Positions 5,431-59,000 of a stretch of DNA of 64,000 bases are shown here, piece by piece; within the stretch, counting starts at the first letter, position 1; every line of letters starts with the position of its first letter. A program made the translations under genes and the position numbers. The notes beneath the pieces are model-generated. The model was not told where the DNA came from, did no database searches, and saw only the letters and a program-made list of their open reading frames with translations. The DNA comes from Rhodamnia argentea (lineage: Eukaryota > Streptophyta > Magnoliopsida > Myrtales > Myrtaceae): positions 21,531,015 through 21,595,014 of the forward strand of contig NC_063157.1 of NCBI RefSeq assembly GCF_020921035.1, in the 5' to 3' direction.

Positions 5431-7945
5431 ATGGAAGAGACGGTGATGATAGTTCATCAAAATGGAGGAATGATAGTCCTTCATCAGTAGAACTAAGAAT
5501 ATCAGATGAAGACTCAGGTTTTGATACCGAACCTGTAAGTGGCCCTGACGATGATAATTTTGAAGAAGCCAATGTCACGACAAGGCCAATGGTTAATAGG
5601 TATGATCCTATGTGTGACCATGATGAGAAAATATTAAATCTAGACATGAGATTTGAATCTCGTGAACAGTTCAAGAACGATGTGAAAAAAATATGTAGTG
5701 ATTAACAGATTCAATATTTCTTGGCAAAAGAGTGAAGAGAAAAGAATGAGAGCGAAGAGCGTAGAAGGATGTGGTTGGAGGTTGTACGGTGTATGGATTC
5801 AGAATAGGAAAACTTTTATCATAAGGGGAGTTGGAGACCCACGTAGCTGTAATCGAAACCTAACTAATAAGCAAGCTCTTGCTACATGGCTTGCTCATGA
5901 GTACATGCCTAAGATTAGGGCTAGGCTAACTTACTCGGCTGCAAAAATGTGAGCAGATGCAAGAGAAAAGTTTGCTCTAATATTGGATAGAAAAAAATGT
6001 TATAGAGCCATATCAAAAGCTCTTAATCTTATAAGGGGCCCGATAGAGGAGCAATATGACATGTTGAAATCATATTTGGCGGAGCTCAAGAGAGTTAGCA
6101 AGGATGGAACATTTGAGATAGAAGTTAATCCAACAACTAAAGTATTTGAGAGGTTTTATGTGCGGTTTATCGAGTTGAAACACGGATTTTTAGCGGGATG
6201 TGGGTGTGTTATAAGCTTGGATGGGTGCTTTCTTAAGACTGGATTAAAGGGTCTGTTGTTATGTGCTGTTGGACGAGATGAAAACAATCAAATGTTTCCA
6301 ATAGTTTGGGCAGTTGTGGAAGTTGAATCCGAGGCATCTTGGACTTGGTTTCTCACCCTAGGCACAAGCAAAGGTTGAATTTTTATCAATGATCAACAAA
6401 AGATAATATCTCACCTTTTGTCTTTGTTGATTATTAAGTAACATTAGTGCAATCATTGACGATACTCATTTGCTTTTTATTGGCTAATTTTGGTTACAGA
6501 GACCAGTGAATGCAGCCTCATGGCTATCTCCACAAGCAGAGCATCGAAATTGTGCAAGACACATATATGCCAATTGGAAAAAATTGCACAAAGGGGATGC
6601 TCTTAAGCATCTCTTTTGGAGGGCTGTGAGATGTACATTTGAAGCTGATTTTGACGTCGCAATGGCAGATTTGAAGATGGAGTGCCCTAAAAGTTACGAA
6701 GACTTCATGAGGTTCATCAAGATAAGAACCAAATATGATGCGGTTGATAAGAACTTAAGCGAGACCTTCAATGGATACATTTGCATACCAAGAGAAAAAC
6801 CCATACTTCAAATAAGAATGATGTTAATGGAGTGGATGGCAGAGAGAAGTCAGTTAATGGTTGATCAAATAGATCCTATTTGCCCGAGGATTAGAATAAA
6901 GTTGGAGAAGATTAAACTAGAATCCAGGCATTTTATTACTAGAGTAGCAATGAGGAGCAAATTTTAGGTTCAAGTGTATGACAATAACTTTGTGGTTGGC
7001 TTGGATAGAAAAACTTATGCTTGTAGGGAATGGGATATCTCCGGAATACCATGTAAACTTTGATGAAGTTAGATATCGATGATTATGTTGATGATTGATT
7101 TAAGAAGGATGCTTATCAAAGATGCTACCAATGTCCCTTCCCATACATGAATGGAAAAAGAATGTGGCCCCAAGTCAGTGGTGAGCTAATCAAACCTCCA
7201 CCTTATAGAAGAAAAAGGGGGAGAGAGAAGAAAAACATAATCAAGGATAAGGATGAACGAAATAGCAATGGTAAGAACTAGCTGAAAGTTGGAATCCAAA
7301 TGCAATGTATAAACTGCCTTCATTATGGGCATAACAAGAGGACATGCAAGAATCCTTCAACATCAAGGCCACCCAAAATAAGTCTTAGTTGAAGGTTTGT
7401 GTAAATTTTAATAAGAATTTTTTTTTTTTTTGAGTTATCATGATTGGTAACATTAGTATTTCTTGTTTTTTTCATTTGCAAGAAAAAGAGGAAGACCAAA
7501 GAAGGCTATTGGTGTTCAGACCAATGCACATGCCAATGTACAATCTAATAGCGACTCTGCCATCATTATTAGGAAGGAGATGGCACAAGTTAGTGCCTTT
7601 TTTATGCATATATTATTTTCACAATAAGTGTATATTGTGAATAACGTGTCTTTATGTTCATTTTATATCATCAGGTACGACAAGGTTATGGACTTTTTAT
7701 TTCTGAAGACTCTGAAAATTCATATTTAAGGGTAATCTCTTTGTCTAATGATTTATATGTATGTTGAGAAGAACTGCAAGTTTACTTTTTACATTTTTTT
7801 TCCACTTTAGATGCTTGGTAGTGATAAAGTTATTCACATTGGAGGTCCATCAATAGCAAGAGATGTTCAAGTTTCAGCGAGCCTATCTTCAATTGGTATC
7901 TCAGAACCTCCACGCACTCAAGAATCTGGAATCGGTGGAGTGTGA
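5431..7945 (+). pseudogene. mudrA-type MULE transposase, decayed
   Basis: Transposase that would cut and paste the surrounding element. Order of recognisable parts: acidic N-terminal stretch (from 5431, after an acceptor TTTTAACAG); MuDR DNA-binding region with FESREQFKNDV and FNISWQKSEEKRMRAK; MULE catalytic domain with GCVISLDGCFLKTGLKG and MFPIVWAVVEVE, then AEHRNCARHIYANWKKLHKG; SWIM-like stretch with SGIPCK; a CCHC knuckle at about 7308-7350 (C-x2-C-x4-H-x4-C in CINCLHYGHNKRTC); and AT-hook-like KKRGRPKK near 7482. Later short exons end at TGA 7943-7945. Lesions: one-base shift in the A-run near 5686-5692, in-frame TGA near 5950, a missing segment after WTWFL near 6350, and a stop after GIPCK near 7050. 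Non-functional as read. Confidence 0.85.
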
Positions 7946-11900: not shown

Positions 11901-12007
11901 TGAGGTGACCTTAGGAAGTAGAAACCTCAGATGCAGAAGACATAACTGAAACTGAAGTGAAGCGTCTCTTTTTGTTTCCTTGTTTGCCGTGCGTGCGTGA
12001 GAGAGAG

Positions 12008-14265
12008 ATGGCAAGGAGGAGCTGTGAGTGGTACGTGGAGGTGCTTCCGTTTATAGCAATGGTGGGGATAGACAGCATAGTTGTGGGAGTCTACACGATG
12101 TTCAAAGCAGCCACGTTGAGAGGGTTGAGCCACCATGTCTTCCTTGTCTATGCTTATGCTCTCTCTGCTCTTCTTCTTCTTCCTGCTCCCTTCATGTCCT
12201 ATAGGTATCTCTCTCTCTCTCTCTCCCCTGTCGATTGTATCCAAATCTAATCTTCTTGAGGAGCTATCATCAGCTGAGTTTTTGTTCTTGGTTTCTCTGC
12301 TCAGATCAAGAGCACTTCCTCCTCTCAGCTTGGCCATACTAGCCAAAATTGGTCTTCTTGGCCTCATTGGGTAATTGTCTGTACAAGTTTGATATTGATC
12401 TTGTGCCAAGTTAGTAGAGGAAAAACGAGGCGAAGCCAACAAATGGGTGTCCCATTTTTCCTTGAGACGACCTTGAATTGGATGCTTTGCTTCTTTGCCT
12501 TTTCAGTTGTAAATTTGCTTTCTGGGTGCTTTTCTTTTTTGGGGGCAGAGCAGGGGTTTAGCACAGATCATGGGCTATGCTGGGATTAGTTTGAGTTCTC
12601 CAACGCTTGGTTCAGCCCTCAGCAATCTCACTCCAGCTCTCACTTTTATACTCGCCATCCTTTTCAGGTTCTCCTTCTCCCTTGTATTGATTGTGGAATA
12701 TCTGGTTAATTGTGATTGAGATTTTGCTAATCAATTCAGGACAGTAGTTGATTACGATCATCTAAGATAGACTAGCAGATTAGCAATAGGGCTCTTCATA
12801 ATTGACATTTTCTCTAACTGCTTGCAACTTTTCTTTTATGCCTTCATTTTGCTTACTTTAAGATCTCCAGTACTGTCGTTAATTAGAAGAGTGTATGTGC
12901 AGCATATTTGATACTTCCTGACTGAACCATTTTTTTTTTGTCCATGTTCTACAATTGATACCCGTGACTAGAATACCATTGATTCAGCAATAAGAGCTGT
13001 GCAGCATGTTAGCGAATTAGACTTCTGCATTATGCTGCTGCATCCCCCGAGACCATGTAAATTACTCCATGCTGGTAATATTGTCTACTAAGTTAACTTC
13101 TCACTTAAACACGATATGTATTTGTTCTTTTCCTTAACAAATAGGATGGAGAAAGTATCACTGAAGAGAAAAGGCAGTCAGGCCAAGATCATTGGGACCG
13201 CTCTGTCCATATCTGGTGCATTTGTTGTCACTCTCTATAAGGGTCCTCCAATAATTAGCACGGCTTTGAAATGGCCTCTCTCATTTGATCCGCTTCTGAG
13301 CGCGTCAAGCTCGAACTGGCTCCTGGGAGGGATATTTCTCATGGCCGAATACATTCTTGTGCCATTGTACTACATTGTTCTGGTACACACTACGCTACTA
13401 TACAACGTTAATTTTCCTAGTGCTAGAGAAATGACTTAGGCCAATCAAAATGAGCGCCGAAACATGAACATGCAGGCACAGGTAATGGAGGACTATCCAG
13501 CTGAACTGACTGTGACCTTCTTTCATAATATGTGCGGGTGCTTCATTGCTGCAGTCGTTGCTCTAGTTGCAGAACATGACACTAATGCTTGGAGAGTAAG
13601 CGATATAGGACTCGCCTCTGTAATATGCTCGGTAAAAGAATGACTATACATGAACTAGCCCCATGTTAACTTGATCGAGAACAGTCAATCTTAACTATTA
13701 TAGAGTGTTGTATGTCTTTACGCCCCTCGGCCTTGTGCATCTTTAGGGACTTTTCACGCAGTGCTTGCGCAACTGTGTTCACACCTGGGCGATCCGCCTG
13801 AAAGGTCCCTTCTATGTTGCGATGTTCAAGCCGGCATCCGTCGTCATCGCCATCATAATGGGCTTCTTCTTTCTTGGTGATGCGATTCATCTTGGAAGGT
13901 ATTAGATGTACTTTGGAAAAATTTACTCTTCAAGTATGTGTTAATGTTCCATTTTCCCACCAACCAGTCCTTTTACGCCCATTATCGCTTATCATCGACA
14001 CGCTTAGCTCTGCGTTATGCGAAGCGGTAAGCTAATCCTGCTTCTGTTTTTCATTCACTGTGCTGCCAATGCTTTCAACACGAACATTTTCTTCCATGTG
14101 CCGGGAATTCACAGTCTCATCGGAGCGATGGTAATATCCATCGGATTCTATACCGTAATGTGGGGGAAGGCGAAAGAGGAGACAAATGAAGAGCCCCAAG
14201 AGGGCGCCACGCAATGCCCGCCATCTCAGAAAGTTCCTCTACTCCCAAAACATCAAAGCCACTGA
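12008..14265 (+). CDS. WAT1-related (EamA/nodulin MtN21) transporter, copy 2, complete
   Basis: Complete gene for a multipass (about 10 helices) DMT-superfamily transporter, 358 residues, close to the family norm. Exons: 12008-12204, 12305-12370, 12551-12667, 13145-13382, 13476-13631, 13747-13898, 14115-14265 (TGA 14263-14265); total 1077 nt, all phases consistent. Exon 3 must start at 12551, after GGCAGAG, since the AG two bases earlier puts a stop in frame. The protein starts [15 protein letters not shown], contains [15 protein letters not shown] (family signature) and [14 protein letters not shown], and ends in a hydrophilic tail [11 protein letters not shown]. The start ATG follows a GA-rich leader. 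A second splice-ready terminal exon lies at 14428-14563. Likely tonoplast or plasma membrane; substrate unknown. No lesion seen. Confidence 0.9.
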
Positions 14266-17902: not shown

Positions 17903-19000
17903 TTAAAAGATGTTGTGAATCAAATTTTTTGTCGACTGACATGTTTTATTCTTGATCCAATATTTTGGTACTCTTTCATTTTCTTTTTTCTTTTTTTGGC
18001 GGGCGAAAGTAGTTGTGATCTTCAAGATCTGTTCGTCTTAATTTATCAAAGCTGAAAAAATAAATAAATAAATAAACAAAGTGATTGGAAGCACTCAAAA
18101 CTAAGTAATGAAATTTCCACAAATACAATCACATTGTAACATTATTTGGAGTATTACTTTAACTTCAATCCAAACAGTTTGTTGAGGCAATCCGAGCTTA
18201 AGATATGCGAAAAAGGCATTAATACTTACATTTCTTTCCTTACATATCTTTAAGAATCGTTTAATTCATGTGCAATCACCATTCCAATCTACCAGTAAAT
18301 AAAAGAATTTGTGCCAACATAGGTTCCCAGTTCTTTGTCCCTTCTTGAGATCGAGAAAAAGAACAAGGTTAAACATTCTAGTGAATGTTTTATCGTCCCC
18401 GAAGGTCAGACAGTGACGACGCAAATAATTATCCTTCATGAAGAAAAGTCGTCTAACTCAACTTTATTAATATGTGTGAAATAAATGACCAGTCATGGTC
18501 AGAAGTGGTTGAAGTTTGAAAAAGTTGTTCTCGGTTGTTGAAAAGTTGATGTAAAAGTTTGAAATTTAACGGTTATGAAAACATATGTCATTGGCTAATT
18601 ATCGCAAGCGATACAAGTAATTATTTTTAAGAAAATATTTTTTAAATTATTTATTTTTCGTAAAAGAAATGCACCCAGAAAAAAAAATTGTTAAAAAGCT
18701 TTTGTCCGATACCCAGTCAATAATGAAAGGAAAGCAACTCTCTCCCCTGGGCTAAGCGACGAACGGAAGCGACGAGGTGATTCATGATTGTAAGTATTCA
18801 GAAGAGGAGGTCCATACTAAAAAACGAGGACGAATCCTTCTTGTTATTTTGTAAATAAACCAAAGCGATCTGATCGTTTCTGTCGTTATTCTTTTGAACA
18901 ATGATGAGAGTTTCATTCTATTGAAAAGAATAGGCTCCACCGCCAACCGTGGCCAGTCCAGCCACACGAGCAATGCCTCTCTGATGAGGAGACCTTAGAA
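17903..19000. other. Intergenic: upstream region of WAT1 copy 3
   Basis: From about 17985 this matches the region upstream of copy 2 (from about 10770) with insertions and deletions; 18690-19100 closely follows 11600-12000. It is the left part of duplicated block B'. No gene recognised. Confidence 0.6.
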
Positions 19001-19082
19001 AAGTAGAAACCTCGGATGCAGAGGATATAACTGAAGCTGAAGTGAAGCGTCTCTTTTCGTTTCCTTGTTTGCTGTGCGTGCC

Positions 19083-19112
<30 letters not shown>

Positions 19113-19119
<7 letters not shown>

Positions 19120-21413
19120 GGAGAAGATGTGACTGGTATATGGAGGTGCTTCCATTCATAGCATTGGTTGGGATAGACAGCATGTGTGGGGGTGTACACA
19201 CTGTTCAAAGCAGCCACCTTGAGAGGGTTGAGCCACCATGTCTTCCTTGTTTATGCTTATGCTCTCTCTGCTCTTCTTCTTCTTCCTGCTCCCTTCATGT
19301 CCAATAGGTCTCTCTCTCTCTCTCTCTCTCTCAAGTGGGTACAAGCCTAATCTTCGTGAGGACTGAGGAGCTATCATCAGCTGAGTTTTGTTCTTGGTTT
19401 CTCTGTCCAGATCAGGAGCACTTCCTCCTCTCAGCTTGGCCATACTAGCCAAAATTGGTCTTCTTGGCCTCATTGGGTAATTGTCTGTACAAGTTTGGTA
19501 TTGATCTTGTGGCCGAGTTTGCGCAGGAAAAGACGAGGCAAAGCCAAGAAATGGGTGTCCCATTTTCTCTTGAGACCTTCTTGAATTGGCTGCGCTGATT
19601 TGCTTTGTTTTGCTTCTTTGCCTTCTCAGTTGCAAATTTGCTTTTTGGGTGCTTTTCTTTTTGGGGGAAGAGCAGGTGTTTATCACAGATCGTGGGCTAT
19701 ACCGGGATTAGTTTCAGTTCTCCAGCGCTTAGTTCAGCCCTCAGCAATCTCACTCCGGCTTTCACCTTCATACTCACCATCCTTTTCAGGTTCTCCTTCC
19801 CCCTTGTGACGATTGTGTAATGCCTGATTAGTTGGGATTGAGATTTTGTTCATCAGTTCAGGATACTAGTCGACTCCGATTATCCAATATAGACCAGCAG
19901 ATTAGCAATACAGCTCTTCATAATTGGCATTTTCTCTTACTGCTTGCAACTTTTGTTGTAGACAATAACATGTCTGGTCTATGTCATTGGTTCGCTTACT
20001 TCGAGATCTCGAGTACTGTTGTTAATTAGAGGAGTGTAAGTGTGACATATTCGATACTTCCTGATTGAACCATGTTTACTGTCAATGTTCCACAATTTGA
20101 TACCCGTGACTAGACAACCGTTGATTCAGCAATAAGAGCAGTGCAGCATGTTAGTGAATTAGACTTCTGCATTATGCTGCTGCATCCCCCGACCAAGACT
20201 ATGTAAACTACTTTATACTGGTAATATTTTCTACTAAGTTAATTCTTACCTAAACATGATATGTATTTGTTCATTTCCTTACCGAAAAGGATGGAGAAAG
20301 TATCACTGAAGAGAAAAAGCAGTCAGGCCAAGATCATTGGGACCATTCTGTCAATATCCGGTGCATTTGTTGTCACTCTCTATAAGGGTCCTCCAATTAT
20401 TAGCATGGCTTTGAAATCGCCTCTCTCATTCGTTCCGCTTTTGAGCACATCAAGCTCAAACTGGCTCCTGGGAGGGATATTTCTCATGGCCGAATACATT
20501 CTTATTCCATCGTACTACATTGTTCTGGTACACGCTTTGTCACTGCACAACTTTAATTTTTCCCAGTGCTAGAGAAATGACTTTGTCTAATCCAAATGAG
20601 CGTCAAGACATGAACATGCAGGCACAGATAATGGAGGACTATCCAGCTGAACTGACCGTGACCTTCTTGCATGGTATAGTTGGGAGCTTCATTGCTGCAA
20701 TCGTCGCTTTGGTTGCAGAACATGACACTAACGCTTGGAAAGTGAGCGACATAGGACTTGCCTCTGTAATATGCTCGGTAAGAGAATGACCATACATAAA
20801 CCAGTCCCATGTTAACTTGATCAAGAACAATCAATCTCAACTTTTATAAAGTGTTGTATGTTTTTACGCCCCTCGGCCTTGGGCATCTTTAGGGACTTTT
20901 CGCGCAGTGCCTGCGCAACTGTGTTCACACCTGGGTGATCCGCCTGAAAGGTCCCTTCTATGTTGCGATGTTCAAGCCGGCGTCGATCGTCATCGCCGTG
21001 TTAATGGGCTTCTTCTTTCTTGGCGATGCGCTTCATCTCGGAAGGTATTAGATGTACTTGGAAAAATTTTACTGTTCAAGCATGCGTTAATGTTCCATTT
21101 TCCCACCAACCGTCCTCCTATGCGCATTATCGTTTATCATCGACGCGCTTAGCTCTGCATTACGCGAAACGGTAAGCTAATCCCGCTTCTGTTTTTCATT
21201 TCATTGTGCTGCCAATGCTTTCGACACACGAACATTTTCTTCCACGTGCCGGGAATTCAGAGTCTCATCAGAGCGATGATAATATCCGTCGGATTCTACA
21301 CTGTAATATGGGGGAAGACGAAGGAGGAGACAAATGAAGAGTCCCAAGAGAGAGCCACGCAATCCCCGCCATCTCAGAAAGTTCCTCTACTGCCGAAACA
21401 TCAAAGCCATTGA
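19113..21413 (+). pseudogene. WAT1-related transporter, copy 3, frameshifted in exon 1
   Basis: Same seven-exon layout as copy 2: 19113-19307, 19411-19476, 19673-19789, 20290-20527, 20622-20777, 20893-21044, 21263-21413 (TGA 21411-21413). Exons 2-7 keep frame and motifs ([50 protein letters not shown]). Exon 1 starts MARRRCDWYMEVLPF but lacks two bases relative to copy 2 just after GIDSM (near 19182), making exon 1 195 instead of 197 nt and running into a stop near 19305. An in-frame ATG near the end of exon 1 could give a product lacking the first two helices. Either a recent pseudogene, a truncated gene or a sequencing error. Confidence 0.8.
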
Positions 21414-22132: not shown

Positions 22133-25100
22133 ATGGGGAAGGTGTCGAAGGGCTCGAGGAAGGGCAAGAAGGCGTGGAGAGCCAACATTAGCACGGAGGA
22201 CATCCACGACTTCTTCGAGAAGTCCACGAAGGACGCTCTCTCCGGCGGATCTCTCGCCGCCGTCCCTAGCGAGTCTCTCTTCTTCGTCGATAAGGCCAGA
22301 GGTATTGCAACGAGCTCTATCCCTCTCTCTCTGTGTCTCTGTGGTGTTCAGCATGTTTCTGTGCTGTGTCTGCTTTTCTGTCATTTTTGTACGCCTAATG
22401 CTTTGCTGATGGTGCTTCGTTGGGTGCCTCCTACGGGGTGATGTGAACTTGGCTTTGGTTTCTTCTTCATGAGCATGAAGAATCCCTTTGCAGTGGCATT
22501 GGGTTAATTGCTTCGGCATATACATTTGGTCTATCTGATTTGAGCTACGATTTAACTACGCCCTTGTGTGGATGAGACGGTTATATGGTGATGATTCGTG
22601 CATCTCTGGGAGATTATGGTTAGACCATTTGCAGGTCGTCATCGTTTGTGATCTTATTTGGAAAAAGGTGAAGTGCAGGTGTCCTCACAACTTATCTCGA
22701 GTGGAGTAAATTCCAGCAGTTTGCCGTGACAGTAGTACACATCTTTCGTTTGATAGCATAATCTCGCTTGGGCTCTGTGCATAATAAGCCGATGCTCTGG
22801 ATATCTGTTTAATGAAGGAAGCATGGTAATGTGCACGGAGATTGAGAATTTGGGTCCACATGTCTGCTCTCCCTGATGCCTCCAAGGCTCTGATTTGAGG
22901 GCCTGGTTACGACCTATATTTTGAAACCATATGATTTATTAAAAAAATCATATCTTGCAACTCAATTATTGATCTAATTTTTTTTTGGGTCAAATTATTG
23001 ATCTAATTTTATCTTGTCATTTTTTTAGCATATAGTAGAATCATATTGAGTAGAAACCTTGGTAGAGATTTCTCTCTCACATTCCTTTATAATGAAGTGT
23101 GATTTGTGCTTTCATTGTGTCACAGCTGTTTGCTCCTGCTGAACTAACAGTGACTTCTTATAATCCGTTGGGTAGATATATCAACTGTGTTATCTGTGTA
23201 CAATAAGCCGATGCTCTGGATATTTTTCATGAAGGAAGCATGGTAATGTGCACAGAGAATGAATCTTTGGGTCCACATGTCTGCTCTCTCTGATGTCTGA
23301 TTTGAGGGCCTGGTTGTGACCCACATTCAGATTAATGTTTGGATAATGTAATTGGATGAAAGAGTAATTAAAGTCTTCATCTTGAAAGAGTCACTAAAGA
23401 GGGTACTTTGTCCTGTGTTTTTCCTTTAGATCTTTCGGTAAAGCGTAAAATTGAGAAGCAAAGGGAAAAGGTACTTCGGACTGACAGTGTTCTTCAGAAG
23501 AACCCCTTTGTCCAAGCAGTCCCCTCTACTGTCAGTAAGAAATCCAGAAAGAAAAGAAAAGAAGTTGTGAACAATGGTGGTCAAGGTGATAACGAGGTGA
23601 GCTAATTTTTGGAGATGTTTCATTAACGGTGAATGAGGGCTGACCGTCTTCTTAATTTTACTTTTAATAGGATGCTTCTGTCTCAGTTTCTGGTATGGTT
23701 GACTTGTGGGCAGGTATGGTGCTCTGTACTTCTAACTATGGTATTTCCAACAGGTTGTTCATTCAAGACATGTGTGATGTAATGTTCGTTCAATGCTTTT
23801 GCAGATAAATTTGATGGCAAGCTCAAGAAGGTAATAACTGAATTTCTTTTGTACCTGCTTTGCTCTTAACTGCTCCTAAAACCTTAAGTAACAATTTCTT
23901 GGAATTTTTCATTTTTTTATCCAATCCTGACTGGATTTAATTATGATCTTTACTCCCTTTTAACAGAAACCCAAGCATTCAATTATTCCAGCTGTAGAAG
24001 TTGAGCCTCCCGGCTGTTCATTCAATCCATCCTTTGAGAGCCACCAGGTACGTATGTGTGTGGGTATATATTTATATTGCATTCAGCCAATAAATTTGAT
24101 GTGTGTAGCGTCACCTCTTATTTGGTATGTTACTTTTATCTAGGATTCTCTGGCATGTGCTGTTGCAGACGAGATGCAGAAAGTCTATAAACATGAGTTG
24201 GGTCCTGAACCTGTTCCATTAACCGTGCAAGGTGAAGTTATTGATGAGGAAGATGTAAGTTTATTATTTTTGAGATCCAATTGTTTCTCTACTTTAATAT
24301 GTCATGTTATACCTCTGTGGAACTCTATTAACTTTTTTTTTAATGCCCCAGATGTATTTCTTGGAGGCTGATAATGGGGGTGATGATGATTCAAGCTTGG
24401 AAAATCTGGATGGTGATGAGAATAAAGCAACCGAGAATAGGTGATTTTCTTTTCACAATTTATAACTTCTCAGTTGTTGACATCAGAGTGATTGTACAAG
24501 GAAATAGCAGATAGGAGTTTTAGAATGAAGTACGCGTCTCTTTACTTGCGTTCTCCGGTTATCTTTATTGTTCATGCTATAGTAATGTCTGCTTCTGTTA
24601 GATTGGCATTAGCCAGAAAATTTCATCTTTAGTTGGCTGGTGTGTGGGGTATGAATCGCTCTTAGTTGAAATCATGCAATTGCAGGTCATCCAAATCAAA
24701 GCCTGTGACACGTGTTGAACTGAATCGGAGAGCAAGACGTAAGGACTTGCTGAAGAAGGAAGCAGAAACAAAGAAGATTGATCAACTGTCCAAGGAAATA
24801 GACAGGTATGATAATACTGCTTTCCAGTACTTTATGCATGAGCCCCAGCAAATTTATGTCTCAGCGAACCTTACTAACAATGGCATCTTTCTTTAGCACA
24901 GCTTACCAGATATTATTCAAGAAATTGCGAAAGAGGATGAGGAGAAGCAAAGACGGCATCTCCGACGTGTTGTTGCTCAGCAAGAAAGAGAAAAGTTGCG
25001 TCCACCACGCCTGGGAAAGCACAAGTATGTGCATGATTTTCTACACTGAATGTTATCTTATGTGTTTACATGAAGCTCCTGATGACAATTCTCTTTTGCT

Positions 25101-29599: not shown

Positions 29600-29642
29600 G
29601 GCTTCGCTTAGTCTAGAACTGGCTCACACTCGACCGCCAGCT

Positions 29643-30131
29643 CTGGAGGAGATTAAGCCCGCGAACCGGACGGCGGTCCGCGACCTTTACGAGGCCCTTC
29701 GACTCCGCGACTGTGACGCCGTCCACCGCATCCTCGCTCCCGACCTCGAGTGGTGGTTCCATGGCCCCCCCTCCCAGCAGTTCTTGATGCGCCTCCTCAC
29801 TGGCGCCTCCCCCTCCGCCGCTGCATCCGACGACACCTTCCTCTTCGTCCCCGACTCCATCACCCCCTTCGGCCCCACCGTGCTCGCCGAGGGCTTCGAC
29901 ACCGCCCGCTCCATCTTCTGGGTCCACGCCTGGACGGTCTCCGCCGATGGGATAGTCACCCAGGTGAGGGAATACTTCAACACCTCGCTCACCGTCACGC
30001 GCTTCGGCGACTCCCCGCCCTCAGATCCTTCGACGGCCAAGATCAACTCGCTGCACTGCCAGTCGCTGTGGGAGAGCAGCGTGTCGAGCCGGGTCGGGAA
30101 GTCCGTGCCGGGTCTGGTTCTCGCCATATAA
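29643..30131 (+). CDS. WUN1/WI12-like wound-induced protein (NTF2-like fold), non-AUG or upstream start
   Basis: Single-exon frame for a wound- and senescence-associated protein of the WUN1/WI12/SAG20 family, a small NTF2-like (SnoaL-type) domain with unknown biochemical activity. Family landmarks: ANRTAVRDLYEALRLRD, VHRILAPDLEWWFHGPP, MRLLTGAS, FVPDSITPFGPTVLAEG, SIFWVHAWTVSADG and VREYFNTSLTVTRFGD, then a serine-rich tail to TAA 30131. The conserved N-terminal part is in one open frame with MRLLTG, but no ATG exists between the TATA box and 29760, and the first in-frame ATG (29787) would delete a third of the domain. In-frame CTG codons at 29619 and 29643 both have G at -3 and +4. I chose 29643 as start by family length. 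Alternatives are an unseen upstream coding exon spliced at the CT-tract ending TAG (29598-29600) or a lost ATG. Confidence 0.8.
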   Translation: MEEIKPANRTAVRDLYEALRLRDCDAVHRILAPDLEWWFHGPPSQQFLMRLLTGASPSAAASDDTFLFVPDSITPFGPTVLAEGFDTARSIFWVHAWTVSADGIVTQVREYFNTSLTVTRFGDSPPSDPSTAKINSLHCQSLWESSVSSRVGKSVPGLVLAI

Positions 30132-33300: not shown

Positions 33301-34265
33301 AAGAACTATCCATGGACTCGCTATCGATTTCTTAGACTCCGGTTTCAAAAATCTAGATCTCAATACCTTGCTTGCCCGCCATGGCACATCTATTTCTTTC
33401 TTTCTTTCGCGAACAGTCGATAAAATAGAAATTTCGAAGATTAAATCGACACTTACATGTATAGTGTGAGTGAAATTGGAGACTAAAACAGTGTGAGTGA
33501 AAGATCTCCGGTTGGAAGAAAGAAACTGCGTTCTTGGTGGGCATAAGGAGACATCAAGTGTAACAACAAAAGGAAAAGGAAAAGGAAAAGGAAAGAAAAG
33601 CTCATGATCTCTGACACTGGGTACGTAGATGAAGCCTTGAATGCGTATTAAGTGATTCTCTTGACACGTCCAACATCGACGTGGAACCTCATGAAGATGA
33701 TACATTCCAGTTTCTGCATGATTCTTCTAACCCTTTCATCTGAAAAGACAGAGACGTTGCAGAGGTAGATTCTTCGAGGTTTTGAACCCTAGTTGTAGGC
33801 ACGGAGACCAAGAAGAACGAGACTTACGTTGTCCGACAAGACGAAAAATGTCCTTTAAAGACGAGACTTCTCAGCTGGATTCATGTAATGGCAGATATAA
33901 AAGAAGACTCAGAACATGAATTCTTGAATCGTTCTCGTGGAACAGGTAAGGCCCGTAAGGGTTGATGATTGAGAGAGCGACGAGCACGAGAAGAGCACAG
34001 CTGGTCCGCCTGCACATGCACAGAGAAAGGTGTACGTGATACGTGCATGTCAAATGAATTATTTGCGGCGTTCGCGACCTAAACACAATTTATGAATGTT
34101 AGTTCAGTCCTAAATCTTTACGCGAAGTTCCAATATAGTGCTTTACGGCCCTATTTTTGCTTAAAATCGATGTGAGGATCTAACCATCACTGGCCATCGG
34201 CGATTTTTGACAAAAATTAGCCTAAAGTCATGCAAAGGTTTTGTGATTCAATCGGCAGAATTTAA
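33301..34265. other. Unidentified stretch with minus-strand open frames
   Basis: Minus frames at 33268-33705 (145 codons) and 33871-34086 are open; from ATG 34018 the second starts MCRRTSCALLVLVALSII, which resembles a signal peptide but soon meets a stop. A (GGAAAA)n patch lies at 33570-33597. No family recognised and exon links between the two are not convincing. Confidence 0.3.
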
Positions 34266-34572
34266 AAATTTTAGGTAAAATTTTGAAAAAGGGCTTCAAG
34301 TATCTTTATTTTCTCAAAAAAGGGCTTAAAGTAGACGTCATTTCAAATAAAAACCTAAAGTGCCCTATTTATTTCAAAAAGGGCCTTAGTAGGGGTATTT
34401 TCATTTTTTTATATTTTCGAATTTTTTTCCCATTGTCCTTTCCTTTTTCTCTTTTTTTTCCCATTTTCCTTTTCTCGTTTTTCCCTTTCCTCCATTGCAG
34501 GACGTCCCCGGCTTCTTCTTCTTGTTCCACCTCCAGCAACTCCAATTCTTATTTTGAGCAACAGAGGAATCC

Positions 34573-34815
34573 ATGGAGTCCGCCATCTCTCTCTACACTC
34601 TCTCCTCCTCCTTCTCCTTCCTCCTCCTCCTCTTTCACCAACCTCACCTTCTCCTCTCTGAGCAAGTCTACGTCAACAACAAGCATGACGACACCACCAA
34701 TGACAACTTCCCCGAGGGCTTCGCCTGCAACGGCCTCCGGAACTCCTGCCGCTCTTACGTCCCCTTCCTCGATCCACCCCCTTCTACGCCTCCCTCCTCT
34801 CCATCTGCTACCTCC
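34573..34815 (+). pseudogene. Captured N-terminal fragment of a LYK4-type LysM receptor kinase gene
   Basis: Starts MESAISLYTLSSS with a hydrophobic signal peptide (LLLLFHQPHLLLS), then QVYVNNKHDD and EGFACNGLRNSCRSYVPF, which correspond to the mature N-terminus of LysM receptor-like kinases (LYK4/LYK5 group, chitin perception) with its conserved cysteines. After a frame change the sequence still gives PFYASLLSICYLLNS, the start of the first LysM. LysM2/3, membrane and kinase parts are absent. It also lies within a longer open frame starting at 34283. Confidence 0.7.
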
Positions 34816-34832
34816 TCAACTCGCAGCTGACC

Positions 34833-35335
34833 ACAACCTCCACGACAAGAATAAGAAGGCCCTCCAGTTCATCGAGGACGTCACGGCTGCCGATGAGGTC
34901 TAGAGGCGGGTCCTCACCAAGATCCTCTGCTGCAATGCTCGCGTCGAGTACGTGCGTCGCTACGGCCTCGAAGGCCAGATCGATCGCGAGTCCTACAAGA
35001 AAACCATGCCCGTGATCACCTGACCTCCAGCCAGACATCGCTCGTATCATCCGGCAAGAAGTCTCCGATCCTCTACTCTCACCTCATTTTGGAGTTCCTT
35101 GCCGAGCACAGAACATGGCAGTTTTCTTCCCGGATCTTCATTTTTCCAACGGGCATGGGCCACTTTTTCAAGTCAAATGGACAAAAATGGATGATTCTTG
35201 CTTCTCGTCGAATGTTTGCCATGTCGTCGCCAAGTTGAGACAATTCTTGATTTGGTGCAGTTCAGGGATGTCCAAAGGAGAGAGCAAGATGATGCCCACC
35301 ATCGAAGAGAAGCTAAGGCCGGCGATGGGTGGGAG
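34833..35335 (+). pseudogene. Captured fragment of a GH3 acyl-acid-amido synthetase gene
   Basis: Corresponds to the N-terminus of GH3 enzymes (auxin/jasmonate amino-acid conjugation). It reads DKNKKALQFIEDVT, then a TAG, then RVLTKILCCNARVEYVRRYG and SYKKTMPVIT, a short deletion, DLQPDIARI, HLILEFLA (family: HPISEFLT), then about 170 bases of unrelated or intron sequence, then SSGMSKGESKMMPTIEEKL-like matter (SGMSKGESK at about 35265-35295; family motif SSGTSxGERKxMP, the nucleotide-binding loop). Only about 110 of about 600 residues are represented. Not functional. Confidence 0.75.
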
Positions 35336-35553
35336 AGGGGAGAGGAAAAAGAAAATAAAAGTAAAACAGAAAAATAAAAAAAAAAAAGAATAAATTTTAA
35401 AATGTAAAAGACGAAAGTATTTCTGTCCAGACCCTTCTTTGAAATAAATAAGATATGTTAGACCTTTATTTGAAACAAGATCCACTTCAAATTCTTTTTT
35501 TGAGAAATTGAGAATACTTTGAACTCTTTTTTGAAAATTTTTCAAAAGTTTAG

Positions 35554-36703
35554 AACCGATTGTAATCGTTAGTTTACTAAGCATTATCCTTCTGAAATAA
35601 GCATCGTGAGTTCTTGGGTCTACCAGTTCAGCCCAAAATTACTGGCATTTGCGTCCAGCAGTGATGTTTGTAATTCAAAATTCCCAGCAGTTCCATCAAA
35701 CCATAATAGTAAAGTTTAAGAATTTTCTTAATTAAATTCGCAAAGTGTTTTCCTTCCCGATTGTAATGTCAACATCAACCTTTTTGGGAGCAACTATCCG
35801 TCTGCTAAGTGTGTCTCAGCTTCCTTAAAATCTGTTGGAGAGATTGCTGTCGGCTCGTCTAATCAGCCATTAAACGACAAGCAAAGCATGCGTATAATCG
35901 GCTGTCGTATTGCCTATATTCAAGCCCGTCATAGCACTTTCCATTTCATCACACTTTCTCGGAAGCATGAAGGAAATTATTCTTTGGGATGTTTTGGTAT
36001 ATCCCCCAGTTTTTTTTTTTCCCGAACAGAAGATGGTTAATTGAAAACTCAAACATGAGAAAGAAATTACAAATATTCAAATGTTTTAGTCTACGCCCTG
36101 GACTTGACCTTATGAAAAGATGGAGTCTTGATAATCATATGATTAGCAGCTTAGATGTAATATTACCCCGTGCTAATGATTTGGAGAATTCTAATCTCAG
36201 TTAAATATAAAGAGATTTCAGCTTTGTCTAATCGGTTAATCTTGAATTAATTCTTAGACTCTGTTTGTTTTTCGAAAAATGAATGATTTGAAAAGAAAAA
36301 ATTCGGAAATGATCGCTTGTATAACTTACAGAATTTAAAAAAATAAAAAAAATTCTATTTTCCATGAATATGTTTAAATATAAATTATTGTCGGCGATGG
36401 AATTTTTTTTATTTACTAATTGCTCCAAGCTGCATAAACAATCATCTGTAGAAAGCTACTAAGGTTTTCGGCCATTGCCTTCAGTAGCACATAGGAAAGA
36501 TTCAACTAATTTCACTTTGGTGCCCCTATACGATTTCAAGGTCGTCTTAGGAATAGAGTTCTTAGATATCAAACCAAAGCTGTACTTAATCGGTGGCAGC
36601 ATTCATAGCAGATGAAATAGCTATCTATTATTTTACAAGAACCATGGCATGAGGTTTTCAAAAGAAAAATTAGTAAGTGAATTGACTGAATGAGCTATAA
36701 GTC

Positions 36704-52384: not shown

Positions 52385-54404
52385 CTATATTTCATCACCA
52401 TGAATTCTAATGGTCCTTGAATGCATGTTTGATCCGAGATCTTCGCCTTTTGATTTACATGTGCGACTATTATGACCATAACACCTACAAGTACCACATC
52501 TCTTCCCCTTTTCAATAATCTCAAATGCCGAAGGATCACATCTTGTAGAAGTTGCTTCCCCTTTAGTTTTTGAATTAGAAGGATGACCTTTATGAGATGT
52601 AACTAGGGGCTCATATAAAATAGCATCACTTGCTCGAACAAAATGCTCAATTTGCTTTCGAACAACTTCCTTTTTGGAAAGTGGCCATTGTTGATACTTC
52701 CTTTCCAACTCGTGAAGTAGTTGCTTAAATGAATCTCCTTCATTGTTTTGAGTAATATCACTATCCAAAAAGGACCTTATATCCAGCCTCCATTGTGGAT
52801 TAATTGCATCAAGAGATAAACCATCGGAAAATCGTAATCTTATCTCGTGGGCACATGGAAGTCGCATGGATTGCACAAAATGCCTGGTACAAGCAGTTAG
52901 CAATCACATTTTGCTTGTAAAGCTTGTCTAAAGCAAATACAGCCACACGAGTAATCAAGTTCCTAAAAAGAGGAATATGAAAATGATGAGAAACTCTTAC
53001 CTTTTTGCTTGATAATTTGCTTCTAATTTCTTGATACTGATTTTCAATTGTAAGGCATATTTTCTTTTCCACCTCAACTAAATCCCTCATTGAAACTTGT
53101 ACGTAGATATGCTTTCAAAGTCGAATGTGCCCCTTCAGCTCTTGAAGTAACACAGTTTCCAAAATGCATGTGCAAGTCTATCCAAGTGGTCACAAAAAGC
53201 TCTTTGAAAGGAAGCCATGTATTTTTTATGTAGTTAATAACCGATGGCTTGTCCTTACATCGATATTCGAATTGCTAAACATTATCCTCATATTCCACTT
53301 CAATCTTGGAGTTCAAAACTTTGGAACAATCAGACATAAAAGAATCCCAATGTGTTCCTTCTTCAAACTGAGATTTACATTTTGCCACAATATTTTTCTC
53401 AATATGCCAAACACACCATAAGTTCGCACTTCTAGGAAAGAAGAATCAAACCGCATTCATCAATGCCAATTCCCTATCGGTGATAATAGCTTAAGGTTGA
53501 CAACCACTATCCAAAATGTTACTCAACATTGTCAAAGCTCAAATATAATCTCCTTCTTCCTCCTTTCTCAAAAAGACAAAGCATGAATAGAAAGAAATAT
53601 TAAAACAGGAAACTCCAATTATATCCAACAAAGGCATTTTGTATCTATTAGTCTTGTAAGTACAATCCATTACGAAGACACTTGATAAACTCTTTGTTAG
53701 TGCCATGGAAATAGGATGGGAGAAAAATAAATATATCAAGTGACCCTCAGCATCATGTTTAAAATTGAAGATGAATCCACCTGTACTAAGCTCATTCAAT
53801 AAGGCTTGGACCATACTGCGACCATTCGGATATTCGGGACGTAACTTCGCTTTCATGTTGTAGACAATTTTAGCTATAACTTGAACATTGGGATTACTTT
53901 GTCTCAAGGAAGAACGGATTTGGCGAGGAGGTATACCGGCCTTAGACATCTCTTTCACACGCAAAGCTTCAACCTTAGAAAAGCGACGATAAGTAGGATG
54001 TCCCGACATATCATAGGGATCATGATTGTGTGATGCATTCACTATTCTGAGTGACCATGATCCATTCTTCTTTTTATAACGACGGACGTCAAAAGGATAA
54101 TTAATCAAACGAGATCCAGTCTTTCGTATCTGACGTGCAACATAAATATTACGTTGATCATGATAACTACCTCCCCTATCGCATCATAGAAGAACATATT
54201 TGTCTCTCTTTGACCTTTTAATAGAGATGACATAACCTTGAGCAAGAAGATGGCTCCGCACACTACTCAAAAGATCTTCTCGAGTTAGAAAATTACTGGG
54301 TAAAGTTTCAAATGAACTTATTGCAATGATCAATTGCTCTTCTCCATTCAAATTTTCATCGTCAATAGATACATTCGAGCAATTTCGATCCTCTTGAATA
54401 TTAC
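52385..54404 (-). pseudogene. FAR1-type MULE transposase, decayed
   Basis: Minus-strand transposase related to FAR1/FHY3-like MULE proteins. N- to C-terminal: FLTREDLLSSVRSHLLAQG and a FAR1-like DNA-binding region (CDRGGSYHDQ, then WSLRIVNASHNHD), MULE catalytic domain (SSVFVMDCTYKTNRYKMPLL, then IITDRELALMNAV, LWCVWHIEKNIVAKCK), HFGN..TSRAEGAHSTLK, SWIM finger (HFVQSMRLPCAHEI) and a C-terminal CCHC knuckle CGTCRCYGHNSRTC. In-frame stops: TGA 54184-54186, TGA 53539-53541 (where the family has Trp, DYIWAL), TAA 53491-53493, TGA 53446-53448, with a frameshift near 52890. Otherwise the frame is largely preserved, so decay is mainly by point substitutions. It ends TGA near 52386. Confidence 0.82.
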
Positions 54405-56019: not shown

Positions 56020-59000
56020 TTTGGTGCATAGTGATATATGCGAATTCAATTGCAAGTTAACACGTGTGATAGAAGGTATTTTATTACCTTTGTGCATGAT
56101 TGCGGTAGGTATTTATATGTTTATCTTCTAAGATCAAAAGATGAAGTGTTTATCACGTTTAAGAAATATAAGGTTGAAGTGGAAAATCCATTAGAAAGAA
56201 AAATTAAAGTTCTACGTTTAGATAGAGGTGGAGAATAGTTCCTCAATGGTTTTTCAACCTTTTGTGAAGAACATGGTACTATTTGTTAAGTTTCTGCACC
56301 ATACGCTTGACAATAAAATGGTTTGACTAAAAGAAAGAATATAATTTTAGGAGAAATGTTTAATTGTATGATTTTGAATTCAAAAATGCCAATTAATCTT
56401 TGGGGAGAAACATTACTTACTGCATGTTACATTCATAATAGAATATTATTCAAGAGAAATAACATTAGTCCTTATGAATCATTAAAATGTAGAAAATCAA
56501 ACTTGTCATACCTTAAAGTGTGGGAGTGTTTGGCATACTATAGAGTATCTAAATTTAAGAGGACAAAACTTGGTCCTAGAGCTATCAAAGGTACTTTTAG
56601 TGGATATGCTGAAAATAATAAAGCTTATATGGTTCTTAATTTAGAGTCTCAATGTTATAGTAGAACCGAGATATGTTGCAGTTTTTTAGATTTTGAAATT
56701 ATTGAGAATAATATTAAGATACAAGATACGAATAATTCAAAACCTATATAAACACAAGGAGATTCTCATGAGAAAGGAATTAATGATTCTAAAGACATGA
56801 CCGAACCTAGGAGAAGCATTAGAGCAAAAAAATTAAAAGATTTAGGTCTAGACTTTACTACTTAAGTTTTCCTTGTTGAAGGAGACAGAGATAATAACGT
56901 GACAAATAAATACTATTCGGTATTGAATCTAGAAGATGATCATAAAAGTTTGGACCTAAATCTTTTATTGGGTATGCTGAAAATAATAAAGCTTATATGG
57001 TTCTTGATTTAGAGTCCAGTGTCATAGTAGAACCGAGATATGTTGCATTTTTTTAGAACATATGTTCTACATATTTTGAAATTAATGTGAATAATATCCA
57101 AATACAAGATATGAACAATTCAAAACCTGTAGAAACACGAGGAGATTCTCATGAGAAAGGAACTAATTGCCTAAAGACATGACCGAACCTAGGAGAAGCA
57201 CTAGAGTAAAAAAATTAAAAGATTTAGGTCCAGACTTTACTACTTAAGTTTTCCTTATTGAAGGAAGGAAACAGAGATAATAATGTGTTAAATAAATACC
57301 CTTTAGCATTGAATCTAGAAGATGATGCTAAAAGTTTTAGTGATGTTATGTCTTCTAGAGATGCTTCCTTTTGGAAAGAAACTATAAATGATGAAATGGG
57401 CTCAATTATGTCCAATCCTACTTGGGAAAGGATCTAAACCTATTGGGTACAAATAGATTTTCAGAAGAAAATGTGATTTTGATGGTTTTGTAGAAATGAG
57501 TTTGAGAGGGTAAAACTTGTGAAGCTATCACATTGATAGGAAACGTTTTGGGTTGATATTGACTTGATTCTACATAATTTTTCAAATAATTAAGGAACAA
57601 AATTTCTTGAAAATAGAAGGAATTATGCCATTGGAACGAGTTTTTGGTAATTCATCATGATCATTTCAATTTTTTTGAAAGGGAATATCCAAGCTTTTAA
57701 GGCTAAATTAGTAGCCAATTGTTATAGGCAAAAAGAAGGAATAAATTATTTTGATACATATGCTCCTGTAGAATGTAACATCTATTCAAATTCTTTTTGC
57801 TTTAGCATCAATTTATGATATTTGTATTCATCAAATGGATGTTAAAACTACCTTTTGAAATGGAGATTTAAATAAGGAAATTAACATGAAATAACCAGAG
57901 GTTTTTGTTCTTTTTTAAAATAAAGGGAAATCATGTAAATTAGTTAAATCTCTTATGGGCTTAAGCAGGCACCTAACCAGTGGTATGAAAAATTTGATTC
58001 GGTCATATTGTCAAACGGTTTCAAACACAATAGCAATGATAAGTGTATTTATTGTAAATTCACTAAAGACTATGGTGTTTTAATTTGGTGATACGTTGAT
58101 GATATGTTTATCTTTGGAACCAATATGATTGGAATCAATGAGATTAGAAGTATCTAACTTTCATATTTAAAATAAAAGACTTGGGTGAAGTAGATACTAT
58201 GTTGGAAATTAAAGTTAAAAAAAAAAATAGTGGGGTTATTCTTTGAGCCAAAGTGATTACGTTGAAAAGATGTTAAATACATTTAAATATCTTGATTTAA
58301 AAAAAATGAGTACTCCTTTTGATACCAATATTAAATTAAATTATAATACTGGTATAGCAGTGACATAACTTGAATATGCGAGTGCTATAGGGTCTTTAAG
58401 GCATGTGATGCATTGTACTAGACCTAATATTGTATTTTCCGTGGGTAAGTTGAGTGGATATACTAGTAATCCAAATATGGAACATTGGAATACTATCGCC
58501 ATAATTTTTGGTTATCTTAAGAAAGCTAAAATTTTTGGATTGTTCTATAATAATTATCCGGTTATATTAGAAGGATACACTCATTCTAGTTGGTTTACAA
58601 GTGTGAGAGATAAACATTTCATTTTTGGATGAATATTCACATTAGGTGGATGTGTTGTATCTTGGGCAAGCAAGAAACAAATATGCATAACTCACTTCAC
58701 AATGGAATCCAAATTTATTGCTTTAGCAATAACTAGGAAAGAGGCTGAATAGACAATAAATTTGTTGTTGGACATCAAATTATTACTTAGTCCTATGCCT
58801 CCTATTTCTATTCAATGTGATAGACAAGCCACTTTGGCAATGACTTCTAATAGCACTTATAATGGTAAGTCTAGACATATCAATCTAAGACATGAGTACG
58901 TGAGATAATTGATTCGGGATGGTACCATAACAATTTTCTATATGAGTTCAAGTAAGAATCTGGCCAATCCCTTTACAAAAGTTCCACCAAGAGATGTGGT

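Follow-up and report, generated by a model that had tools for sequence, protein, structure and literature searches.

The stretch of DNA analysed here (the window; 64,000 nt of Rhodamnia argentea, NC_063157.1:21,531,015-21,595,014, forward strand) carries at 34275-35543 a 1269-bp element in which fragments of two host genes lie between inverted ends. The LYK part (34482-34827) and the GH3 part (34824-35314) are both on the plus strand, and the element is organised as follows.

34265-34274, no strand: left target-site duplication, AAAATTTTAG, a 9/10 match to 35544-35553, flush with the ends of the terminal inverted repeats (TIRs)
34275-34474, no strand: left TIR, with ~31-bp sub-repeats, an inverted match to the right end and an 84% match to positions 1-198 of the copy consensus
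34482-34554, plus strand: LYK4/5 5'-UTR fragment, 82% to the 5' flank of the LYK gene on contig C2 (L043:4595-4520)
34550-34827, plus strand: LYK4/5 N-terminal coding fragment with its ATG at 34573, 86% to L043:4441-4154 (phmmer, 9gxz, 4.4e-5)
34823-34828, plus strand: LYK-GH3 junction, a 6-bp microhomology site placed from donor flanks and the 24-copy alignment, CCAGCC in both donors and GCAGCT in the window copy
34824-35105, plus strand: GH3 exon 1 fragment (PF03321), with an in-frame TAG at 34901-34903 and 5 bases missing near 35021; the whole GH3 piece is 79% to L044:3390-3899
35106-35260, plus strand: retained GH3 intron 1, aligning to the donor GT...AG intron (L044:3682-3845)
35261-35314, plus strand: start of GH3 exon 2 (SGMSKGESKMMPTIEEKL), aligning to the donor exon, with protein matches to GH3 that are sub-threshold only
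35346-35543, no strand: right TIR, an inverted match to the left end
35544-35553, no strand: right target-site duplication, AAAAGTTTAG, a 10-bp direct repeat of AAAATTTTAG with one mismatch

The window copy has G...C termini and TIRs of ~200 bp, as do its relatives, long TIRs being a mark of Mutator-like elements (MULEs), and is flanked by a 10-bp duplication. The inverted ends described in the initial annotation are borne out by the pairing of the termini (56-nt arms, 73% complementary; 135 positions, 70%); the start proposed there (34275) stands, whereas the element ends at 35543, the proposed end, 35544, already belonging to the right target-site duplication as its first base. Base composition changes along the element, from 29% GC in the left TIR to 56% in the LYK part, 55% in the GH3 exons, 45% in the GH3 intron and 22% in the right TIR. 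There is no transposase of its own within the 1269 bp: translated in six frames, the captured region yields GH3 (one match above the cut-off, one below) and one sub-cut-off match to MAP17. Within its fragment in the window copy the LYK reading frame is disrupted by +2 and -3 bases near 34770 and by a 9-base loss, the GH3 frame differs from the LYK frame, and the longest stop-to-stop frame overlapping 34200-35600 has 218 codons. Elsewhere in the window are two H/ACA snoRNA snoR100 genes (22810-22921 and 23227-23328, plus strand, ~0.4 kb apart), a frame with a WI12 wound-induced protein domain (29601-30131; PF07107, E=1.8e-39) and a retrotransposon polyprotein fragment (56317-56751; PF25597, E=2.8e-16). 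Similar frames with common peptides at 11915-13439 and 18918-20789 suggest a duplicated gene; a Pfam search of three frames in these two regions gave no match.

Both fragment identities are confirmed by DNA identity to donor genes, which for the window copy is 86% to a LYK4/5 gene and 79% to a GH3 gene. At the protein level, the frame at 34573-34830 matches 9gxz, the structure of a LysM receptor kinase, at 4.4e-5, with all further matches at E=0.16 or worse, and a Pfam search of the same frame found no family up to E=1. The GH3 part is recognised by Pfam PF03321 (frame 34904-35020, E=1.4e-6) and by GH3.6 structures (frame 34904-35023, 1.4e-9). The initial reading of a LYK4-type N-terminus followed on the same strand by a GH3 N-terminus therefore holds for both pieces, and its parent genes, which it had left to be found, could be located by searching the genome (346.7 Mb in 74 contigs, including 11 contigs of 24-37 Mb). 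The segments trace to two different genes rather than a single one, both on contig C2, 1.5 Mb apart and apparently intact; host-gene fragments with donors elsewhere in the genome are as expected of a Pack-MULE. The LYK4/5 donor match lies at C2:30098153-30098440(-), in a gene whose single open frame (minus strand, L043:2445-4415) encodes 656 aa, with the LysM1, LysM2 and LysM3 domains of LYK4/5 plus a kinase. Capture extended from its 5' UTR to about codon 88, with ~80 bp of the 5' UTR absent from the chimera. The GH3 donor match (C2:28562889-28563398(+), locus L044) begins at codon 11, takes in the 164 bp of intron 1 (L044:3682-3845) and reaches into exon 2. The consensus of the copies is closer to the donors than the window copy is, agreeing at 269/289 LYK positions (93%) and 449/512 GH3 positions (88%), intron included. 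A DNA search with the GH3 part gave 28 rows, comprising the window copy, other copies and a single GH3 gene; the 31 rows for the LYK part comprised copies, the donor, a LYK-only element on contig C3, a LYK copy that has degenerated and one match of low complexity. At 4789-5266 of L043, ~0.2 kb upstream of the part of the LYK donor that was captured, sits a small element whose TIRs are related, and it is speculation that this element helped capture.

LYK and GH3 fragments occur together at at least 25 places on nine of the 11 large contigs; these counts were made by hand from search rows and are lower bounds (GH3 was counted at 26 element places, LYK at 26 and the two together at 25). Among these last, L033 was taken as a single copy split by ~5 kb and left out of the alignment, which comprises 24 copies (L009-L032). 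Subfamilies can be distinguished: L026-L031 are without the LYK start, and L014, L015, L017-L021 and L023-L025 have a common deletion in the intron. Copies diverge from the consensus by K 0.08-0.12. Two chimera copies on contig C8 (18.66 Mb and 14.85 Mb; L005, L008) share a segment of 4.15 kb that is 95% alike, and each of them has ~0.9 kb of extra DNA between a left TIR and the LYK part.

The commonest ends of the copies are GGGAAAATTTC...GAAATTTTCCC, and a TIR pattern of 30 bases with up to 3 mismatches occurs at 271 places genome-wide, compared with 0 for the reversed control. For target duplications, 22 copies were assessed at both ends, which were allowed to shift by as many as 4 bases; L013 and L016, a pair embedded in a segment with 95% similarity over 4.15 kb, were excluded because extra DNA interrupts their left end. 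Perfect duplications (8-11 bp) of at least 8 bp flank 16/22 copies and of at least 9 bp 14/22, whereas cross-paired flanks scored by the same procedure gave 6/460 and 2/460, respectively, the L019-L021 pair being excluded from this control only. The duplications of the other 6/22 copies are imperfect, including that of the window copy (one mismatch, in AT-rich DNA). Two of the perfect duplications (L015 and L031) are near-homopolymers, and L019 and L021, which have an identical duplication, are probably one insertion that was later duplicated, so that the independent clean cases number fewer than 16. The ends thus behave as TIRs beside target duplications at other copies as well, as the initial annotation supposed, and a target-site duplication next to the TIRs falls within the 7-11 bp that the available part of PMC4858842 gives for MULEs (9/10 for the window copy). 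All insertion evidence is drawn from copies within one genome, where no empty site was seen. Past transposition of the chimera is well supported, and is the only activity of which this can be said.

The junction between the two captured genes, ...CTCAACTCCCAGCC/GACCACAACCTC..., is common to 23/24 aligned copies apart from point changes, the other copy (L032) being deleted there, and the chimera was therefore formed once and then transposed. Comparison with the donors places the breakpoints at ...CCCAGCC|TTAC in LYK and ...ACCAGCC|GACT in GH3, with CCAGCC in common. Microhomology of at least 6 bp arises at random breakpoints of the two donor stretches with a frequency of 0.0025 (200,000 draws), and the LYK-GH3 join could be one template-switch event.

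This raises the question of the order in which the two genes were acquired. The LYK-only element at C3:5400984-5402247 has the same type of TIR and a perfect 9-bp duplication, TAAATTAAA, and its LYK piece is longer, with 5'-UTR and coding stretches absent from the chimera. It may be a descendant of the precursor of the chimera, or a separate capture. In the former case there would have been two separate captures, first of LYK, as in this element, and then of GH3 with partial loss of LYK, a refinement of the general explanation to which we give somewhat less than an even chance. In its favour, a three-way LYK alignment shows the C3 element with the state of the chimera and not of the donor at 15 sites, and with that of the donor and not of the chimera at 9; the chimera and the donor agree against the C3 element at 44, all differ at 2, and 284 are identical. 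However, the donor may be the one that changed at the 15 sites, the common states being ancestral: the LysM kinase of the protein alignment resembles the chimera and not the donor at one common length difference, as judged by eye. The C3 element would then possibly be an independent capture. The matches of the LYK search provided no usable outgroup for polarising the C3 element, L048 being a degenerate LYK copy. L049 was rejected as a LYK paralogue: its match is of low complexity, and its frame is unrelated, resembling an acyl-CoA ligase by eye. Of the 'repeated capture' proposed in the initial annotation, the two host genes stand, and repeat events are plausible but not proven, given that a LYK-only element exists and that a single template switch is possible.

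Which enzyme could have moved these elements? A 6.7-kb MULE at C3:8703714-8710416, in which a TIR-pattern end and a MULE transposase frame are 2.2 kb apart, has MuDR DNA-binding, MULE and SWIM domains (PF03108, PF10551, PF04434), in two frames separated by one in-frame stop. A similar TIR is found at each of its ends, 84% similar over 111 positions to that of the Pack-MULE, and both flanks carry the same 9 bases, TTAATTAAT. Transposase places (150 scored of 474 candidates) and TIR places (~100 of 271) were compared by eye and one element was examined; TIRs in common with a MuDR-type transposase element were thus found on one such element. The 6.7-kb MULE is a relative with transposase genes and stands for autonomous relatives, and we infer that this element, or one akin to it, mobilised the chimera. 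Within the window itself, remnants of MULE-type transposases are present at 5953-6967 and 52385-54183 (PF10551 at 5953-6378 and 53539-54183); a Pfam search of the frames 6488-6967 and 52385-52903 gave no match, and near these remnants we found no convincing TIR of the Pack-MULE family.

The copies have decayed since. Transition rates are 0.140 at CG, 0.122 at CHG, 0.077 at CHH and 0.048 at A/T sites, which fits C-to-T decay strongest at CG and CHG, as expected for methylated DNA. Changes relative to the consensus at codon positions 1/2/3 number 187/112/99 in LYK and 144/131/146 in GH3 (counts rather than dN/dS, over 199 positions of LYK and 170 of GH3, which are part of the captured DNA). There is no third-position excess, and purifying selection on the donor proteins is therefore not seen.

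One candidate function is regulatory: the chimera may have been kept because its transcripts give putative small RNAs by which expression of LYK4/5 and GH3 is reduced. Perfect 21-mers, one or more per copy, are common to the LYK locus and 21/24 copies, and to the GH3 locus and 23/24 copies, with 26 and 15, respectively, for the window copy (the donor loci being 8 kb each, and the LYK locus also holding the related TIR element). Small RNAs from the copies that act on the donors are accordingly possible in principle as judged from sequence, and there are precedents: the parts of PMC4858842 and PMC8277862 at hand report small RNAs mapping to genic MULEs in rice and a proposal of small RNAs for Pack-MULEs, respectively. 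The methylation-like decay would also agree with this, but is typical of any silenced transposon. Furthermore, the captured parts are without sign of constraint in copies that are diverged and broken, both pieces are in sense orientation, and the inverted repeats lie in the ends and AT-rich parts, none duplicating the captured part. Taken together, we regard retention for this reason as very unlikely. An extended version, in which one TIR family took up the LYK4/5 donor on more than one occasion, aided by the related MULE ~0.2 kb upstream, and the chimera is a putative dispersed small-RNA source coupling chitin-receptor and auxin-conjugation genes, is more improbable still.

A new protein with the LYK signal peptide, or a LYK-GH3 fusion gene under selection, is hardly credible. 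In the consensus, an ATG frame from the LYK start does end only after 149 aa, and copy L016 has a frame of 266 aa, but the former continues into GH3 in another frame. With GH3 out of frame after LYK and no third-position excess, no fusion protein is expected, and this candidate was rejected. The LYK start codon is ATG in only 13 of the 24 copies (altered in 5, deleted in 6), and the frames from these 13 range from 7 to 266 aa. A shared early stop was rejected as the cause of lost coding, the TAG of the window copy (CAG in the donor) being present in only 3/24 copies. Finally, a processed pseudogene or retrogene is rejected because the GH3 intron is kept, at least 70% of it being present in 23/24 copies, as expected for DNA-level capture by a Pack-MULE. 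Rice Pack-MULEs keep introns and favour the 5' ends of genes.

From its ends, target duplications, two donors, retained intron, single common junction and many insertion sites, the window element is almost certainly a non-autonomous Mutator-like transposon (Pack-MULE) carrying a LYK-GH3 chimera that was amplified and has decayed, and the initial reading of a chimeric Pack-MULE is borne out by donor genes, TIRs, target duplications and at least 25 copies. An ancestral element would have copied DNA, not RNA, from the 5' ends of a LYK4/5 gene and a GH3 gene, and the two pieces would have been joined head-to-tail at the 6-bp microhomology, the simplest route being a template switch in the course of repair or replication. 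MULEs whose TIRs match would then have provided, in trans, the transposase that moved the chimera; past movement is seen in the many insertion sites, while the source of the enzyme is presumably a MULE such as that on C3. The chimera would subsequently have given rise to several subfamilies, which decayed by methylation-type C-to-T change.

The closest known counterparts are the rice Pack-MULEs (Jiang et al. 2004, as cited in the available parts of PMC13317346, PMC4858842 and PMC8277862), which are likewise non-autonomous MULEs with TIRs, short target duplications and host-gene fragments. From what these sources offer in part, there are >3,000 Pack-MULEs in rice (review PMC13317346), one-third of them multicopy with distinct target duplications and with a bias towards GC-rich capture (PMC8277862), and MULE-derived genes often have several parents (PMC4858842). 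Since Pack-MULE features are present and multi-parent, multicopy and GC-rich precedents exist in rice, the element belongs to a known kind; compared with rice Pack-MULEs, it is a two-donor chimera at at least 25 places with both donors on one contig. Animal Pack-TIRs and the FoSTeST model, as far as covered by the section of PMC8277862 available, share multicopy captured DNA between TIRs, breakpoint microhomology and amplification after capture, whereas the present element is a plant MULE with microhomology between two captured genes and not between transposon and filler. Soybean Tgm-Express elements, judging from the extract of PMC1947982, are also DNA transposons with host-gene fragments, but belong to the CACTA superfamily, and alternative splicing of their fragments is reported. 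In a literature search on Pack-MULEs with LysM or GH3, in Eucalyptus and in Myrtaceae, we found no report of a LYK-GH3 element among the titles listed, and a search on Pack-MULEs with more than one donor yielded nothing useful.

By itself, the LYK-GH3 element adds no new mechanism or function. Its donors, junction microhomology, intron, LYK-only relative, transposase relative and many insertions are visible in one genome, however, which makes both the mechanism by which MULEs capture genes and its order testable with orthologous loci.
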